From assembly GCA_947628985.1 (NCBI GenBank), contig CANRCA010000004.1, positions 1-38,723 of the forward strand: a DNA stretch of 38,723 nucleotides, read 5' to 3'. Position numbers and translations under genes: made by a program. Under the pieces are notes generated by a model, which searched no databases, was not told where the DNA came from, and saw nothing but the letters and a program-made list of their open reading frames with translations. Source of the DNA: an uncultured Bacilli bacterium (GTDB taxonomy: Bacteria; Bacillota_I; Bacilli_A; RF39; UBA660). Below are positions 2-6,670 of this stretch, in pieces (positions within the stretch are counted from its first letter, which is position 1; each line of letters starts with the position of its first letter).

Positions 2-1306
2 TTAAGAGATGATAGAGATGAAGAAGATACTCAAGGTGATAAATTTCTTTATGAAGGTGGAATTAGTGAATATGTAAGATTTATTAATCAAGGTAAAACA
101 CCTATACATGAAGATATAATACATTTAACTGGAGAAAAAGATGGAATTGTATTTGAAGTAGCGATGCAATATAATTCAGGATATAATGAAAATATTTATT
201 CTTTTGTCAATAATATAAACACTCATGATGGTGGTACACATGAAGATGGTGTTAAAAGAGCACTTGTAAGAGTAATAAATTCATATGCAAGAAAAAATAA
301 TATCTTAAAGGAAAAAGATGAAAATTTAAGAGAGGATGATGTTAAAGAAGGATTAACAATGATTATTTCTTGTAAACATCCAAATCCTCAATTTGAAGGA
401 CAAACAAAAGGAAGATTAGGAAATAGTGAAGTTAAAAATTTAGCTGATAGTGTATTTGCTGAAGGATTTGAACAATTCTTATTAGAAAATCCAGAAGATG
501 CAAGAATAGTTATAAATAAAGCAATTTTAGCGAGAAATGCTAGAATGGCTGCTAAAAAAGCAAGAGAAGCTACTAGAAAAAGTGATTTAGCAACAACTAA
601 TTTCTTTGGAAAATTATCAGATTGTAAGAGTAAAGATCCAACAATTTCTGAAATATTTATAGTCGAGGGAGATTCAGCCGGTGGATCTGCTAAAAAAGGT
701 AGAGATTCAATGACTCAAGCAATACTTCCTTTAAGAGGTAAAATATTAAATGTTGAAAAAGCAAGATTAGATAAAGCTCTTGGTAATGAGGAAATTAAAA
801 CAATAATTACAGCATTTGGTACAGGAATAGGTGAATATTTTGATTTATCTAAATTGAGATATGACAAAATTATTATAATGACCGATGCCGATGTTGATGG
901 TGCTCATATTAGAGTATTGTTATTAACTTTATTTTATAGATTTTTTAAACCAATTGTTGAAGCAGGACATATATATGCAGCACAACCACCTTTATTTAGA
1001 ATAATGCATGGTAAAACAAGAAAGTATGTACTAGATGAAGAAGAAAAAGAAGCATATTTAGCATCTCTTCCAGAAAATGTTAGAAATCGTGCTGAGATAG
1101 CTCGTATGAAAGGTTTAGGAGAAATGGATGCTGAAGAATTAAATGAAACAACAATGGATATAAATAAGAGAGTTTTAAGAAGAATAACAGTTGGTGATTG
1201 TATAGCAGCTGATGCAATATTTGAAAAATTAATGGGTGATGAAGTTGAACCAAGAAGAACATTTATTGAAGAAAATGCAATAAAGGTTAAAAATTTAGAT
1301 ATTTAG
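2..1306 (+). CDS. gyrB: DNA gyrase subunit B, 3' part (partial at window edge)
   Basis: ATPase subunit of DNA gyrase, which with GyrA introduces negative supercoils. The open frame runs in from the left edge (frame 2) without a stop, so this is the C-terminal two thirds of the protein; the N-terminal ATP-binding region lies outside the window. Visible are the transducer region, the TOPRIM motif EGDSAGG near nt 665, the metal-binding DADVDG near nt 885, and the C-terminal RMKGLGEMD segment typical of type IIA topoisomerase B subunits. It ends 10 nt before gyrA, and the gyrA Shine-Dalgarno overlaps its stop. ParE is the alternative family, but the following gyrA and the origin-type gene order favour GyrB. 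Confidence 0.95.
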
Positions 1307-1316
1307 GAGGTTTATA

Positions 1317-3917
1317 ATGGATACAGAAGAAGAAAAAATAGAAGAAGAAACTATAAATGAAGAAGAAAATCTTGAAGAAGATAATGTAGATTATGGTGGA
1401 ACATTTCATGAAAGAGATTCTCATAAGGAAAATAATATAGTTGATGAAGTTAAAGATTCTTTCTTAGATTATTCAATGAGTGTTATTACTTCACGTGCTA
1501 TTCCAGATTTAAGAGATGGTTTAAAGCCAGTTCATAGAAGAATTTTATGGTCAATGTATGAAGAAGGTAATACTCCTGATAAACCTCATAGAAAATCAGC
1601 AACAACTGTTGGAAATGTTATGGGTCATTACCATCCACATGGTGACTCATCTATATATGAAGCAATGGTTCGTTTAGCACAAGACTTCAATCAAAGATAT
1701 ATGCTTGTTGATGGACATGGAAACTTTGGTAATATTGAAGGTGATGGAGCTGCAGCATATCGTTATACAGAAGCAAGACTTTCAAAAATATCTTTAGAGT
1801 TATTAAGAGATATTAATAAAGATACAGTTGATATGGATTTAAACTTTGATGAAACTAGAAAAGAACCAAAGGTTTTACCATCAAGATTTCCAAATATATT
1901 AGTTAACGGTTCTATGGGAATTGCTGTAGGTATGGCTACCAATATACCACCTCATAATTTAACTGAAGTTATAAATGGTTGTATTGCTTATATTGATAAT
2001 CCTGATATTGATACTGATGGATTAATGCAATATATTAAAGGTCCAGATTTTCCAACAGGTGGAATTATATTAGGAAATTCAGGAATTAAGAAGGCTTATG
2101 AAACAGGTAGAGGTTCTATTACAATTAGAAGTAGAGCTGAAATTGAAGAACATAATGGACATAGTACAATAGTATTTACTGAAGTACCTTATGGAGTAAA
2201 TACTCAAGAATTAAAAGATAAAGTTGCAGAACTTGTAAGAGATAAAGTGATTGATGGAATAACAGATTATCACACAGATTTAAAAGATGGAGTTAAAATT
2301 ACAATTACTCTAAAAAAGGATGCAAATCCTCAGGTAGTTTTAAATAATTTATATAAACATACATCTTTTCAAACAAATTATGGAATTATATTCTTAATGC
2401 TTGATGGATTAACTCCTAGAACTTTAGGATTAAAATCAATCATATCTAAATATATTGACCATCAAAAAGAAATTATTATAAGACGTACAAAATTTGATTT
2501 AGCAAAAGATGAAAAAAGAGTACATATTTTAAATGGTTATAAAATAGCACAAGATAACATCGATGAAGTAGTAAAAATTATTAGAAATGCTTTAGATGAT
2601 CAAGATGCTAAAGAAAAATTAATGGCTAGATTTGGATTAGATGAAATACAATCAGATGCAATATTAGAATTAAAGTTAAGAAGATTAACAGGATTAGAAA
2701 GAGATAAAATTGAAGAGGAATTACAAAGTTTATTAAAAGAAATTGAAGAATTAAAATCAATTTTAGCTAGTGAACAAAAAGTTCTTGAAATTATAAAGAA
2801 AGAAATGCTTGAAATTAGAAACAAGTATGGTGATGAAAGAAGAACTTCAATTGATATGACTGCTATTGAATATATAGAAGATGAGGCTTTAATACCACAA
2901 GAAGAAGTTATTGTAACATTAACAAACAAAAATTATATTAAGAGAATTGCAAAAAATACTTATAAATCACAACATAGAGGTGGAGTTGGTATTAAAGGAT
3001 TAACAACAACAGAAGAAGATTATGTAGAACAATTAATATCTTTAAATACTCATGATTATATATTATTCTTCTCAAATAAAGGTAAAGTTTATAGAATGAA
3101 AGGATATAGTATTCCTGAATATTCTAGGGTTGGTAAAGGACTTCCTATTATAAACTTATTACATTTAGATAAAGATGAAAAAATAAATACAATGCTTAAA
3201 GTAAATAGTGAAGAAACAAACAAATGTTTAGTGTTTAGTACTAAAAAAGGATTAATAAAAAGAACATTGTTAAGTGAATTTGATAATATTAGACAAACAG
3301 GAAAAATAGCTATTTCTTTAAAAGAAGATGATGAATTAATATCTGTTAAGTTAGCTAATGATGATAGTCAAGTATTGATGTGTTCTTCAAATGGAAGAAT
3401 GGTTAGATTCAATGTTAATGAAATAAGAATTATGGGAAGAACAGCTTCAGGTGTAAGAGGTATTAATTTAATTGACGATATTTGTGTAGGAAGTGAAATA
3501 TCTGAACCAGGTAAATTATTGTTAGTAGTAACTGAAAATGGATTTGGAAAGAAAACTGCAATTGAAGATTATAGAGAAACTAAGAGAGGTAGTAAAGGTG
3601 TTAAAACTTTAAATATTACAGATAAGAATGGAAAAATAATTAGTTTCAAATCAACAGACAATAATCAAGATTTAATGATAATAACTAATAATGGAATCAT
3701 TATTAGATTAGATGTAAATAGTATTTCACAAATGGGTAGAGTTACAAAAGGTGTTAAATTAATTAATCTAAAAGATGAAAATAAAGTAGCATCAATTTCA
3801 TTAGTTGATAAAGAAGATGATGACGACGAAGAAGTATTAACCACAGAATCAACATCAAATTCTGAAGAAACTGAAAATATAGAATCAAATCAAGATCAAG
3901 GAGAAACAAAAAATTAA
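1317..3917 (+). CDS. gyrA: DNA gyrase subunit A
   Basis: Breakage-reunion subunit of gyrase, acting with GyrB. The start is fixed by GGAGG at 1306-1310. Catalytic Tyr is Y150 in YRYTEARL. The quinolone-pocket segment HPHGDSSIYE has Ser111 and Glu115, the usual drug-sensitive residues. The C-terminal beta-pinwheel carries a GyrA-box-like QHRGGVG at residues 552-558, where the sixth position is Val rather than the usual basic residue. At 866 aa it is somewhat longer than usual because of an acidic N-terminal extension of about 40 residues before DSFLDYSMSV and a Glu/Asp/Ser-rich tail after VASISLVDK. The first Noc-site palindrome begins 14 nt after the stop and could also terminate transcription. 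Confidence 0.96.
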   Translation: MDTEEEKIEEETINEEENLEEDNVDYGGTFHERDSHKENNIVDEVKDSFLDYSMSVITSRAIPDLRDGLKPVHRRILWSMYEEGNTPDKPHRKSATTVGNVMGHYHPHGDSSIYEAMVRLAQDFNQRYMLVDGHGNFGNIEGDGAAAYRYTEARLSKISLELLRDINKDTVDMDLNFDETRKEPKVLPSRFPNILVNGSMGIAVGMATNIPPHNLTEVINGCIAYIDNPDIDTDGLMQYIKGPDFPTGGIILGNSGIKKAYETGRGSITIRSRAEIEEHNGHSTIVFTEVPYGVNTQELKDKVAELVRDKVIDGITDYHTDLKDGVKITITLKKDANPQVVLNNLYKHTSFQTNYGIIFLMLDGLTPRTLGLKSIISKYIDHQKEIIIRRTKFDLAKDEKRVHILNGYKIAQDNIDEVVKIIRNALDDQDAKEKLMARFGLDEIQSDAILELKLRRLTGLERDKIEEELQSLLKEIEELKSILASEQKVLEIIKKEMLEIRNKYGDERRTSIDMTAIEYIEDEALIPQEEVIVTLTNKNYIKRIAKNTYKSQHRGGVGIKGLTTTEEDYVEQLISLNTHDYILFFSNKGKVYRMKGYSIPEYSRVGKGLPIINLLHLDKDEKINTMLKVNSEETNKCLVFSTKKGLIKRTLLSEFDNIRQTGKIAISLKEDDELISVKLANDDSQVLMCSSNGRMVRFNVNEIRIMGRTASGVRGINLIDDICVGSEISEPGKLLLVVTENGFGKKTAIEDYRETKRGSKGVKTLNITDKNGKIISFKSTDNNQDLMIITNNGIIIRLDVNSISQMGRVTKGVKLINLKDENKVASISLVDKEDDDDEEVLTTESTSNSEETENIESNQDQGETKN

Positions 3918-3937
3918 TAATCAAATTTAAAAAAATT

Positions 3938-3951
3938 ATTTCCCGGGAAAT
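3938..3951. promoter_or_regulatory. Noc-binding site 1 (NBS), possibly also the gyrA terminator
   Basis: ATTTCCCGGGAAAT is an exact match to the published B. subtilis Noc-binding site. It lies inside a longer perfect palindrome (about 3931-3958) whose A-rich left arm and T-run right arm follow the gyrA stop by 14 nt. In RNA this could fold with a CCGG loop and act as an intrinsic terminator. Confidence 0.8.
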
Positions 3952-3991
3952 AATTTTTTTATGGAAAAAGAAAAATTAAATATACAAAAAT

Positions 3992-4005
3992 ATTTCCCGG
4001 GAAAT
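3992..4005. promoter_or_regulatory. Noc-binding site 2 (NBS)
   Basis: Second exact ATTTCCCGGGAAAT, 54 bp downstream of the first. It is extended to a 28-bp perfect palindrome (3985-4012) from CAAAAAT to ATTTTTG. The flanks differ from copy 1, so the conserved element is the 14-bp core rather than a duplicated block. Confidence 0.8.
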
Positions 4006-4257
4006 ATTTTTGTGAAATTATTAAAAATTTATAAATATGAATTTAATCAAATTATTTTTATAAATAAATAATTTTTTTATTAACATTATAGTGTATTTAT
4101 ATTAAAAATTAAATTTTAAATTAATATATATATATATTGCATTCATTAATTGATTTGATTGTAAATAAACATTAATTAGAGTTTAATTTAATATATTTAT
4201 AAAGTTACATTTATATTAATTAAATAAGATTAATATAAATAAAAAATCTCAAAAATT

Positions 4258-4271
4258 ATTTCCCGGGAAAT
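4258..4271. promoter_or_regulatory. Noc-binding site 3 (NBS)
   Basis: Third exact ATTTCCCGGGAAAT, extended by AAAAATT/AATTTTT arms. It sits 12 bp left of the first parS-like site, pairing the two site types. Confidence 0.8.
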
Positions 4272-4283
4272 AATTTTTGAATA

Positions 4284-4299
4284 TGTTTCATGTGAAACA
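4284..4299. promoter_or_regulatory. parS-like ParB-binding site (variant)
   Basis: TGTTTCATGTGAAACA differs by one central base from parS TGTTTCACGTGAAACA. The flanking A/T bases extend the dyad. ParB proteins generally tolerate single mismatches, so binding is plausible but may be weaker. Confidence 0.7.
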
Positions 4300-4335
4300 T
4301 ATTTTAAATAACAAAAAAAATAAAAATAATTTTAA

Positions 4336-4351
4336 AGTTCCACGTGGAACT
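4336..4351. promoter_or_regulatory. parS-like ParB-binding site (GTTCCACGTGGAAC type)
   Basis: AGTTCCACGTGGAACT is a parS-type palindrome with GTTCCACGTGGAAC in place of GTTTCACGTGAAAC. The perfect dyad extends over 26 bp (4331-4356). This form resembles known natural parS variants, including the C-G inner pair. Confidence 0.75.
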
Positions 4352-4394
4352 TTAAATTATAATTTGAATATATTATAAAAATATTATTAAAATT

Positions 4395-4408
4395 ATTTCC
4401 CGGGAAAT
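4395..4408. promoter_or_regulatory. Noc-binding site 4 (NBS)
   Basis: Fourth exact ATTTCCCGGGAAAT, ending 12 bp before the exact parS. This repeats the NBS-then-parS spacing seen with NBS 3 and the variant parS. Confidence 0.8.
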
Positions 4409-4420
4409 AATTTTTATATA

Positions 4421-4436
4421 TGTTTCACGTGAAACA
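4421..4436. promoter_or_regulatory. parS, exact ParB (Spo0J) binding site
   Basis: TGTTTCACGTGAAACA is identical to the classic B. subtilis parS. ParB loads here and recruits SMC/condensin for origin segregation. It lies just upstream of the SRP RNA promoter. Confidence 0.9.
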
Positions 4437-4446
4437 TTAAATTAAT

Positions 4447-4473
4447 TTGATTTATTTTATTACATGTTATACA
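4447..4473 (+). promoter_or_regulatory. Promoter of the SRP RNA gene
   Basis: Possible -35 TTGATT (4447-4452) and extended -10 TGtTATACA (4465-4473) with a 15-bp spacer. Predicted initiation at about 4480 agrees with the 5' end of the SRP RNA stem. Confidence 0.55.
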
Positions 4474-4481
4474 ATTTATTA

Positions 4482-4553
4482 GTGCAACAAGCCAAGTATG
4501 AACCAGGTCAGAATTGGAAAATAGCAGCCTTAAGTACAAAGCTTGTGTGCACT
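4482..4553 (+). ncRNA. ffs: Small bacterial signal recognition particle RNA (4.5S type)
   Basis: Carries the diagnostic SRP domain IV: ACCAGGTCAG (4502-4511), an apical GGAA loop region, then TAGCAGCC on the return strand, as in 4.5S RNA. The outer arms GTGCA-ACAAGC (4482-4492) and GCTTGTGTGCAC (4541-4552) pair with a small bulge, closing a single rod of about 72 nt without an Alu domain. It would bind Ffh and target nascent membrane proteins. In B. subtilis the SRP RNA gene follows tadA; here it precedes it. A T-run and an AT-only hairpin (TTTTAATT-TG-AATTAAAA, 4553-4570) follow. Confidence 0.92.
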
Positions 4554-4589
4554 TTTAATTTGAATTAAAAATTTAAAAAGAGGAAATAT

Positions 4590-4991
4590 ATGGAAAAATA
4601 TATAGAAAAGTTAAAAAAACTGAATAAAAAAGCATTAAAAAACAATGATGTTCCAGTTTCTGCTATTATAATAAAAAATAATAAAATAATAGCAAAAGCT
4701 TATAACAAAAGAAACAAAAATAAAAATCCTTTATATCATGCAGAAATATTAGCTATTGAAAAAGCATCTAAAAAATCAAAAACTTATAACTTAATTGAAT
4801 GTGAAATGATTACAACATTAAAGCCTTGTAAAATGTGTGAAGAAGTAATTAAATCTTCAAAAATTAAAAAAGTATATTATTTATTAGATCAAAAGAAAAA
4901 TGTTAACAATAAAATAGATTATCAAAAATTGTCTGATGAAAATGACTATTTTAAATTAGAATTATCTAATTTTTTTGCAGATAAAAGATAG
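4590..4991 (+). CDS. tadA: tRNA-specific adenosine deaminase (A34 to I)
   Basis: Zinc deaminase that converts wobble A34 to inosine in tRNA-Arg(ACG). The catalytic signature is complete: H50-A-E52 in YHAEILAIEKA, and C80-x2-C83 in KPCKMC. The C-terminal LSNFFADKR matches the LSDFF ending of TadA. At 133 aa it is short for the family (about 150-165), mainly through a trimmed N-terminus and loops. RBS AGAGGAAA precedes the ATG. Its neighbours, SRP RNA and dnaX, are the standard Bacilli context. The gene is closely followed by a terminator. Confidence 0.9.
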   Translation: MEKYIEKLKKLNKKALKNNDVPVSAIIIKNNKIIAKAYNKRNKNKNPLYHAEILAIEKASKKSKTYNLIECEMITTLKPCKMCEEVIKSSKIKKVYYLLDQKKNVNNKIDYQKLSDENDYFKLELSNFFADKR

Positions 4992-5035: not shown

Positions 5036-6670
5036 ATGTCTTATATATCATTATACAGAAAATATAGGCCTCATAAATTTAAAGAAGTTGTAGGTCAAGA
5101 AGTTGTAGTAAAAATATTAAAAAATAGCATCATAAATAATAAAATAGGTCATGCTTATATTTTTAGTGGTCCAAGAGGTACTGGTAAAACAAGTATAGCT
5201 AAAATTTTTGCACGAGCAGTAAATTGTTTAGATAATCAAGATGGAGATATATGTGAAAAATGTGCTAATTGTACAAATGATATAGACGATGAAATTGATA
5301 TTATTGAAATAGATGCTGCTAGTAATAATGGTGTAGATGAAATTAGAGAAATAAGAAATAATGTTAAAATGATGCCTAGCAATTTAAAATATAGAATATA
5401 CATTATAGATGAAGTTCATATGTTATCAACTAGTGCATTTAATGCATTGTTAAAAACATTAGAAGAACCTCCTAGTCATGCAATATTTATATTAGCAACT
5501 ACAGAAATAAATAAAATACCAGCAACAGTAATTTCAAGATGTCAAAAATTTGATTTTAAAAAAATAAGTGAATCAGATATTATAAATAGATTAAAATACA
5601 TACTATCAGAAGAAAATAAAACATTAGAAGATAATATAATAAAATTAATAGCAAAATTAAGTGATGGTGGACTAAGAGATGCTATTAATTTATTAGATCA
5701 AATATTATCTTTAAATAAAGATGTTGTAGAAGAAAAAGATGTTTATGATTTAATTGGTGAAATTGATTTAAATAATGTATTTGATTTATTAAAATATATA
5801 ACTAGTGGAAATATAAAAGAAGTAATTAAAATAATAAATAATTACTATGACGAAGGTAAAAACTTTTCAAAAATATGTGAAAAATTAGAATATTTAATTA
5901 AAGATATTTTAATTTATAACAATACTGATAATTATTTTGATAAAGAATATGAAAATAAATTATTTGAATTTTCAAAAATAGATTCAACACTATTTATTAA
6001 AATGTCACAAGATTTATTTGATTTAAACTATGACTTAAAAAGAAGTAATAATCAAAAAATTGTAAGTGAAATATACTTCTTAAAAATGACATTAAATTTT
6101 AATACTGGTGATAAAACAGAAGAAAAAGAATTAATAAAAGAAACAACTGAAATTGTTAATAAAACAGTTAATAATTCTAATGAAAACGAAAAAATAGAAC
6201 AAGAAATATTATTAGAAAACAAAAAGATAATAGTAAACAATTGTTTGTATGAAGCAAATAAACAATTAAAAATAGATTTCACAAAACAATTTGAAAAAAT
6301 AAAAGAATACGAAACAGATAAAAAATACAATATGCTATCAAATTTATTAAGTAAATCAATACCAGAAGTAGTTGGTAATAATAATGTTTTATTCACATTT
6401 AAAAATAATTTTGAAGTAGTATTATTTGAAAAAAATACAGAAAAAATAGAAAAATTTATAGAATTAATATATAATAAAAAATATACTGTTGTTTCAGTAT
6501 CAAATGAAGAGTGGAATGAAATAAGAACTAAATATATCAATGACATTAAGAATGGTGTTAAATATGAATATATGGAATTAAAGAAAATGCCAAGAAAAAA
6601 TAAAAAAAATACTGAATTAGAAAATAGTATAAAAGATATATTTGGAGAAGAATATATAAAAGAAGATTGA
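5036..6670 (+). CDS. dnaX: DNA polymerase III subunits gamma/tau (clamp loader ATPase)
   Basis: AAA+ ATPase of the clamp loader that opens the beta clamp and links polymerase cores. Walker A GPRGTGKT at residues 45-52; zinc-binding Cys at 64, 73, 76 and 79; Walker B/DExH IIDEVHML near residue 124; sensor-1 region ILATTEINKIP and SRC finger near 167. Start fixed by GGAGG at 5024-5028. The C-terminal half (after about residue 370) is poorly conserved, lysine- and asparagine-rich, as in small Bacilli tau proteins. Length 544 aa is normal. It heads the run dnaX-ybaB-recR, the conserved order in Bacilli. Confidence 0.95.
   Translation: MSYISLYRKYRPHKFKEVVGQEVVVKILKNSIINNKIGHAYIFSGPRGTGKTSIAKIFARAVNCLDNQDGDICEKCANCTNDIDDEIDIIEIDAASNNGVDEIREIRNNVKMMPSNLKYRIYIIDEVHMLSTSAFNALLKTLEEPPSHAIFILATTEINKIPATVISRCQKFDFKKISESDIINRLKYILSEENKTLEDNIIKLIAKLSDGGLRDAINLLDQILSLNKDVVEEKDVYDLIGEIDLNNVFDLLKYITSGNIKEVIKIINNYYDEGKNFSKICEKLEYLIKDILIYNNTDNYFDKEYENKLFEFSKIDSTLFIKMSQDLFDLNYDLKRSNNQKIVSEIYFLKMTLNFNTGDKTEEKELIKETTEIVNKTVNNSNENEKIEQEILLENKKIIVNNCLYEANKQLKIDFTKQFEKIKEYETDKKYNMLSNLLSKSIPEVVGNNNVLFTFKNNFEVVLFEKNTEKIEKFIELIYNKKYTVVSVSNEEWNEIRTKYINDIKNGVKYEYMELKKMPRKNKKNTELENSIKDIFGEEYIKED

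Follow-up and report, generated by a model that had tools for sequence, protein, structure and literature searches.

What is a compact block of palindromes doing directly behind gyrA in an uncultured Bacilli bacterium? The window, meaning the whole stretch of 38,723 nucleotides that was analysed, contains here a mixture of Noc-binding sites (NBS) and parS sites. The initial annotation had proposed that a single locus loading both ParB and Noc would couple origin segregation with division-site occlusion and membrane tethering. The mixed NBS/parS array is confirmed as real; it recurs in the bacterial family, and at that level it gains in interest over the window alone.

Between gyrA and the SRP RNA lie 553 bp (3918-4470), which hold four NBS and three parS (Table 1). 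All four NBS are exact and lie where they had been placed. The parS sites, announced as one exact and two variant copies, comprise an exact site, a variant with exact core and a site with one mismatch. NBS 1 is embedded in a larger palindrome, AAAAAATTATTTCCCGGGAAATAATTTTTT. The core of parS 2 is GTTCCACGTGGAAC, a form frequent in the bacterial family. The surroundings are A/T-rich as described (86% A/T over the interval), and the seven sites hold 43 of its 75 G/C bases. Both NBS-parS gaps reported as exactly 12 bp have that length (4272-4283 and 4409-4420). A first-order Markov model yields a chance expectation in 1.06 Mb of ~4e-4 for the exact NBS and 2e-4 for the exact parS.

Table 1. Genes and sites around the array (positions in the window), and tandem arrays in relatives (positions in the contig or locus named).
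Feature	Position	Strand	Remarks
gyrB	164..1306	+	5' part lost at contig end
gyrA	1317..3917	+	array begins right past the stop codon
NBS 1	3938..3951	.	exact ATTTCCCGGGAAAT; 20 bp past the gyrA stop
NBS 2	3992..4005	.	exact ATTTCCCGGGAAAT
NBS 3	4258..4271	.	exact ATTTCCCGGGAAAT; parS 1 starts 12 bp later
parS 1	4284..4299	.	TGTTTCATGTGAAACA; 1 mismatch versus TGTTNCACGTGAAACA
parS 2	4336..4351	.	AGTTCCACGTGGAACT; 14-bp core exact
NBS 4	4395..4408	.	exact ATTTCCCGGGAAAT; parS 3 starts 12 bp later
parS 3	4421..4436	.	exact TGTTTCACGTGAAACA
small bacterial SRP RNA (RF00169)	4471..4566	+	directly behind the array
tadA-like tRNA adenosine deaminase	4590..4991	+	
dnaX	5036..6670	+	
tandem array, G022	C1:89189-90102; C68:147-267		
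tandem array, L145	12699-13522		
tandem array, L112	2864-3108		

In relatives, the order dnaA-dnaN-recF-gyrB-gyrA, read from the open reading frames, leads to the array, which places it on the origin side, ~8-9 kb from dnaA. Matches of a GyrA search were uncultured gut and rumen Bacilli, Candidatus Aphodocola among them. Relatives such as L072 and L082 carry mixed sites on either side of the SRP RNA.

The genome itself is a 1.06-Mb draft of 95 contigs, 68% complete, from which more sites may be missing. Across this whole draft, neither a further NBS at 0-1 mismatch nor a second exact parS core was found; one match to the NBS had two mismatches. The genome-wide motif search confines NBS (≤1 mismatch) and exact parS to the array locus. 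Generic repeats were rejected as an explanation because no sites occur elsewhere in the genome and because reversed-pattern controls remained nearly empty: among 145 family genomes, the reversed NBS was absent and the reversed parS was positive in one genome.

Both paralogs presumed by the initial annotation are encoded, as one ParB and one Noc-type member of the ParB family. The parB gene follows parA, and its product carries the ParA-binding motif LGKGL. Its best solved relative is Spo0J from B. subtilis. An SMC hinge protein is encoded in the same genome and in most genomes of the genus. ParB and the Noc-like protein both contain GERRxxA and ENLQR/ENIQR, motifs of the CTP pocket. The Noc-like protein comprises 362 aa and has the Noc structures 7ng0/7nfu as best solved relatives (E ~1e-56). 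Its score of 264 bits against TIGR04285 (nucleoid_noc) is below the curated cut-off of 315, although this is still its top NCBIfam model. Four residues decide the site choice, R/T/A/G in Caulobacter ParB versus Q/K/K/R in Noc, and a single lysine, 179 or 184, is enough for Noc specificity (Jalal et al., PMC7383237). The rule applied for Noc was Q173, K179 and/or K184, and R201 in Caulobacter ParB numbering (PMC7383237). With QKTR at these positions, the Noc-like protein is of Noc type. The pattern Q-K-x-R was present in 33 of 34 alignment rows, which include a G. thermoleovorans reference and some genes that occur in two loci. ParB has RMRG, and ParB-type proteins aligned across the family have R-x-x-G or R-x-x-S with one exception. 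The features of a ParABS centromere are found together, namely a canonical parS on the origin side, parA-parB with LGKGL and parS-type specificity residues. Since both proteins are encoded and their residues predict binding of both site types, one loading locus for two clamps, as first suggested, is well supported.

Two observations concern these genes in relatives. NBS are located 0.3-0.7 kb upstream of noc in L171 (G001), G006:C6:15495-15793 and G003:C22:15942-16672, possibly for autoregulation. ParB in L189 (G092:C1:17000-21200) has Q-T-R-T at the four specificity positions, and its genome lacks an exact GTTNCACGTGNAAC; the parS sequence has perhaps changed along with ParB.

Conservation was examined in a family sample of 145 genomes from 144 genera. 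An exact NBS occurs in 118 of them, usually with 1-6 copies each, and parS in 130. The 2.5 kb behind gyrA were compared at the 70 loci where the sequence continues for 1.5 kb or more. This interval contained parS in 67, NBS in 45 and both in 41 cases; in about a third of the relatives, parS is present and NBS is missing directly behind gyrA. Among the relatives read, NBS are situated almost exclusively downstream of gyrA and not at dnaA. In two well-assembled relatives (contigs of 0.77 and 1.04 Mb), every NBS at ≤1 mismatch is near the array. A chromosome-wide spread of NBS that spares the terminus was found neither in the draft genome nor in these two relatives. Exact NBS and parS form adjacent pairs in 33 of the 145 genomes of the family, against 0 for the reversed-pattern control. 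In the class sample, 341 genomes from 24 further families yielded no such pair, and the phylum sample gave none beyond the family either; both samples seem to be without Bacillus-type genomes, so this absence does not extend to Noc-bearing Bacillales.

In three relatives, an NBS is located within a coding sequence ~6.6-6.9 kb behind gyrA (L092 near 19005, L099 near 19076, L124 near 19433). The gene is probably rsmI, judged from its place before pth. The site reads ATT TCC CGG GAA ATA, encoding ISREI, and may be under selection within the gene because the codons TCC and CGG are unusual in such A/T-rich genomes.

The presence of NBS is linked to that of noc. The gene was counted as absent when the best match to the Noc of the draft genome was missing or weak (E ~1e-50 or worse, as ParB would score), which applied to 10 of the 145 family genomes. 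NBS of the form ATTTCCYRGGAAAT were missing in 6 of these 10 versus 11 of the 135 genomes with Noc (Fisher p = 1.7e-4, a guide only, as the genomes are related and incomplete and the test overstates their independence). The presence of parS had no link to noc in the same 145 genomes (p = 0.28). Where noc is undetected, NBS apparently tend to vanish while parS is kept.

Judged from sequence, the array is very probably a chromosomal centromere in composite form, a single platform close to the origin on which two DNA clamps, paralogous and CTP-dependent, would be loaded. ParB would nucleate at parS, slide onto the adjoining DNA and recruit ParA and SMC. The Noc-type paralog would nucleate at the interleaved NBS and spread across the same few kilobases, with co-occupancy of this DNA as the expected outcome.

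The arrangement of the sites within the array is variable. Site order and spacing are under fast turnover: in the closest relatives, whose GyrA is 91-93% identical, the orders are NNPPNN, NNNNPNPNN and NNPNPN (N, NBS; P, parS), with different gaps. The 12-bp NBS-parS gap, equal to 27 bp between centres, occurs in none of the three closest relatives. Among 36 mixed arrays, the 27-bp distance occurred in 6 versus 1.4 expected, uncorrected for kinship. A conserved device of 12 bp was discarded, since this is one spacing among many and is missing in the nearest relatives; a preference for it is suggestive only, and weak at best. Satellite-like tandem arrays with one NBS and one parS per unit have unit lengths of ~79 bp in G022, ~118 bp in L145 and ~73 bp in L112; in them the mixed centromere takes the form of a repeat unit. 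The dyad symmetry of parS reaches beyond the 16-bp consensus to positions +3 to +5, with arms coupled within the locus (gyrA loci L072-L151). NBS bear a symmetric A/T extension with the family-wide consensus AWTTTT, which explains the long perfect palindromes of the window. Covariation of the RNA type between palindrome arms was rejected, as the NBS flanks are mostly symmetric consensus. Within loci, the arms of parS were strongly coupled (z 7.2) and those of NBS only weakly (z 2.4), values that are inflated by near-duplicate sites; the coupling in parS may partly come from site duplication.

Palindromes between gyrA and the SRP RNA could also be read mainly as terminators or hairpins that resemble ParB and Noc sites by dyad symmetry only. 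NBS 1 is part of a hairpin (-11 kcal/mol) whose 15-bp stem precedes a T run, each of the seven sites has a better fold than the majority of shuffled sequences, and a terminator scan rates parS 2 as terminator-like on both strands. The pattern of an intrinsic terminator, a GC-rich stem and a T run after a gene, is partly fitted by NBS 1 and parS 2. Termination would be possible with any hairpin, yet two exact protein-site sequences occur. The presence of NBS tracks that of noc, some other NBS are inside coding genes, and the flanks match the family consensus as a protein preference would. This explanation of the array is very improbable, although NBS 1 may terminate gyrA as well as bind protein.

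Other readings differ in the task of Noc; they are refinements of the composite centromere, and their probabilities overlap with it. In classical nucleoid occlusion at the origin, Noc on NBS would tether the origin region to the membrane, exclude FtsZ and couple segregation with the choice of the division site. The NBS-specific residues of the Noc-type protein and the NBS adjoining parS fit this reading, and Spo0J and Noc of B. subtilis jointly delay Z-ring assembly (PMC6852036). The amphipathic helix needed for B. subtilis Noc function was predicted in every Noc homologue examined in that study (Adams et al., PMC4331003) and is described as Noc-family-specific and CTP-controlled (Jalal et al., PMC8429893), yet none of the 30 Noc loci read in the family has this N-terminal helix. 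The family proteins start ~15-20 residues ahead of the NRFQPR motif, and in most of the 30 loci a stop codon is so close upstream that neither the amphipathic helix nor alpha-2 of known Noc would fit. A linker of 73-380 residues, acidic or proline-rich, leads to a C-terminal segment resembling that of Noc, and elsewhere in these proteins no hydrophobic stretch is long enough for a membrane span. The B. subtilis mode also relies on chromosome-wide NBS, which do not cover the chromosome here. Classical occlusion is unlikely on these grounds. Of the coupling first proposed, the two kinds of loading site at one conserved origin-side locus and the encoded SMC hinge are well supported; its membrane part is not supported, as the helix is missing. 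Alternatively, Noc at the origin may mainly control replication initiation, the array being a reservoir or sensor near dnaA. Noc of S. aureus restrains replication initiation (PMC5540599), and here the distance to dnaA in relatives is short and NBS occur only on the origin side, but nearly all of them follow gyrA instead of lying at dnaA. As the main task of Noc, this control is possible and rather doubtful. NBS and Noc might further confine or shape the sliding of ParB as barriers or spacers, which would make Noc a structural component of the partition complex. The two site types alternate at distances of often 20-50 bp, and some relatives (L112, L129, L145, G022) have them in regular tandem units, but the spacing is variable and not kept in the closest relatives, and NBS are missing from the cluster in a third of the relatives; a role as barrier is improbable. 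Replication control, centromere structure and division timing are close in likelihood, and classical membrane occlusion ranks lower because the amphipathic helix is missing.

Within the composite centromere, Noc would mark or modulate the segregating origin, acting on division timing, on replication initiation at dnaA or on centromere structure. It is probably such an origin mark and not a membrane shield of the whole nucleoid, because almost all NBS are near the locus and the helix is missing. Tentatively, Noc throughout the family may be a second, soluble centromere clamp: free of membrane tethering, it would load at one origin-proximal platform on the NBS between the parS sites and thus share its DNA with ParB.

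The established picture of Noc is that of a paralog of ParB which acquired three traits, a membrane helix, a new DNA specificity and dispersed sites, to protect the nucleoid from division. In the family sample, the DNA specificity exists without the helix or dispersed sites, which makes the three traits separable and suggests that Noc is able to act at the centromere itself. If true, the two-clamp centromere possibly represents a state of Noc before or after its role in nucleoid occlusion. In these arrays, which are natural and have clean sites for both clamps, it can be tested directly whether ParB and Noc load together and interfere with each other. ParABS and Noc systems are known; the interleaving of NBS and parS at one locus and the helix-less Noc are apparently new, as the openly accessible literature searched gave no account of them.

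The locus resembles the Soj-Spo0J-parS system of B. subtilis in the parA-parB operon, the LGKGL motif, the R/G residues, the canonical parS on the origin side and the SMC-hinge protein. It differs in having a single parS block behind gyrA, interleaved with NBS in many relatives. The Noc-NBS systems of B. subtilis and S. aureus include the closest paralog, with the Q-K-x-R residues and the same NBS core, whereas the family Noc lacks the amphipathic helix and alpha-2 and has a long linker, acidic or proline-rich, ahead of the C-terminal segment. Its few NBS close to the origin contrast with the scatter over most of the chromosome in B. subtilis and with the 41 Noc loci across the origin-proximal half in S. 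aureus (PMC5540599). The binding sites are on the origin side as in the replication-controlling Noc of S. aureus; that protein, like the one of B. subtilis, is distributed broadly over the origin-proximal half, whereas the sites of the family are restricted to a few kilobases.
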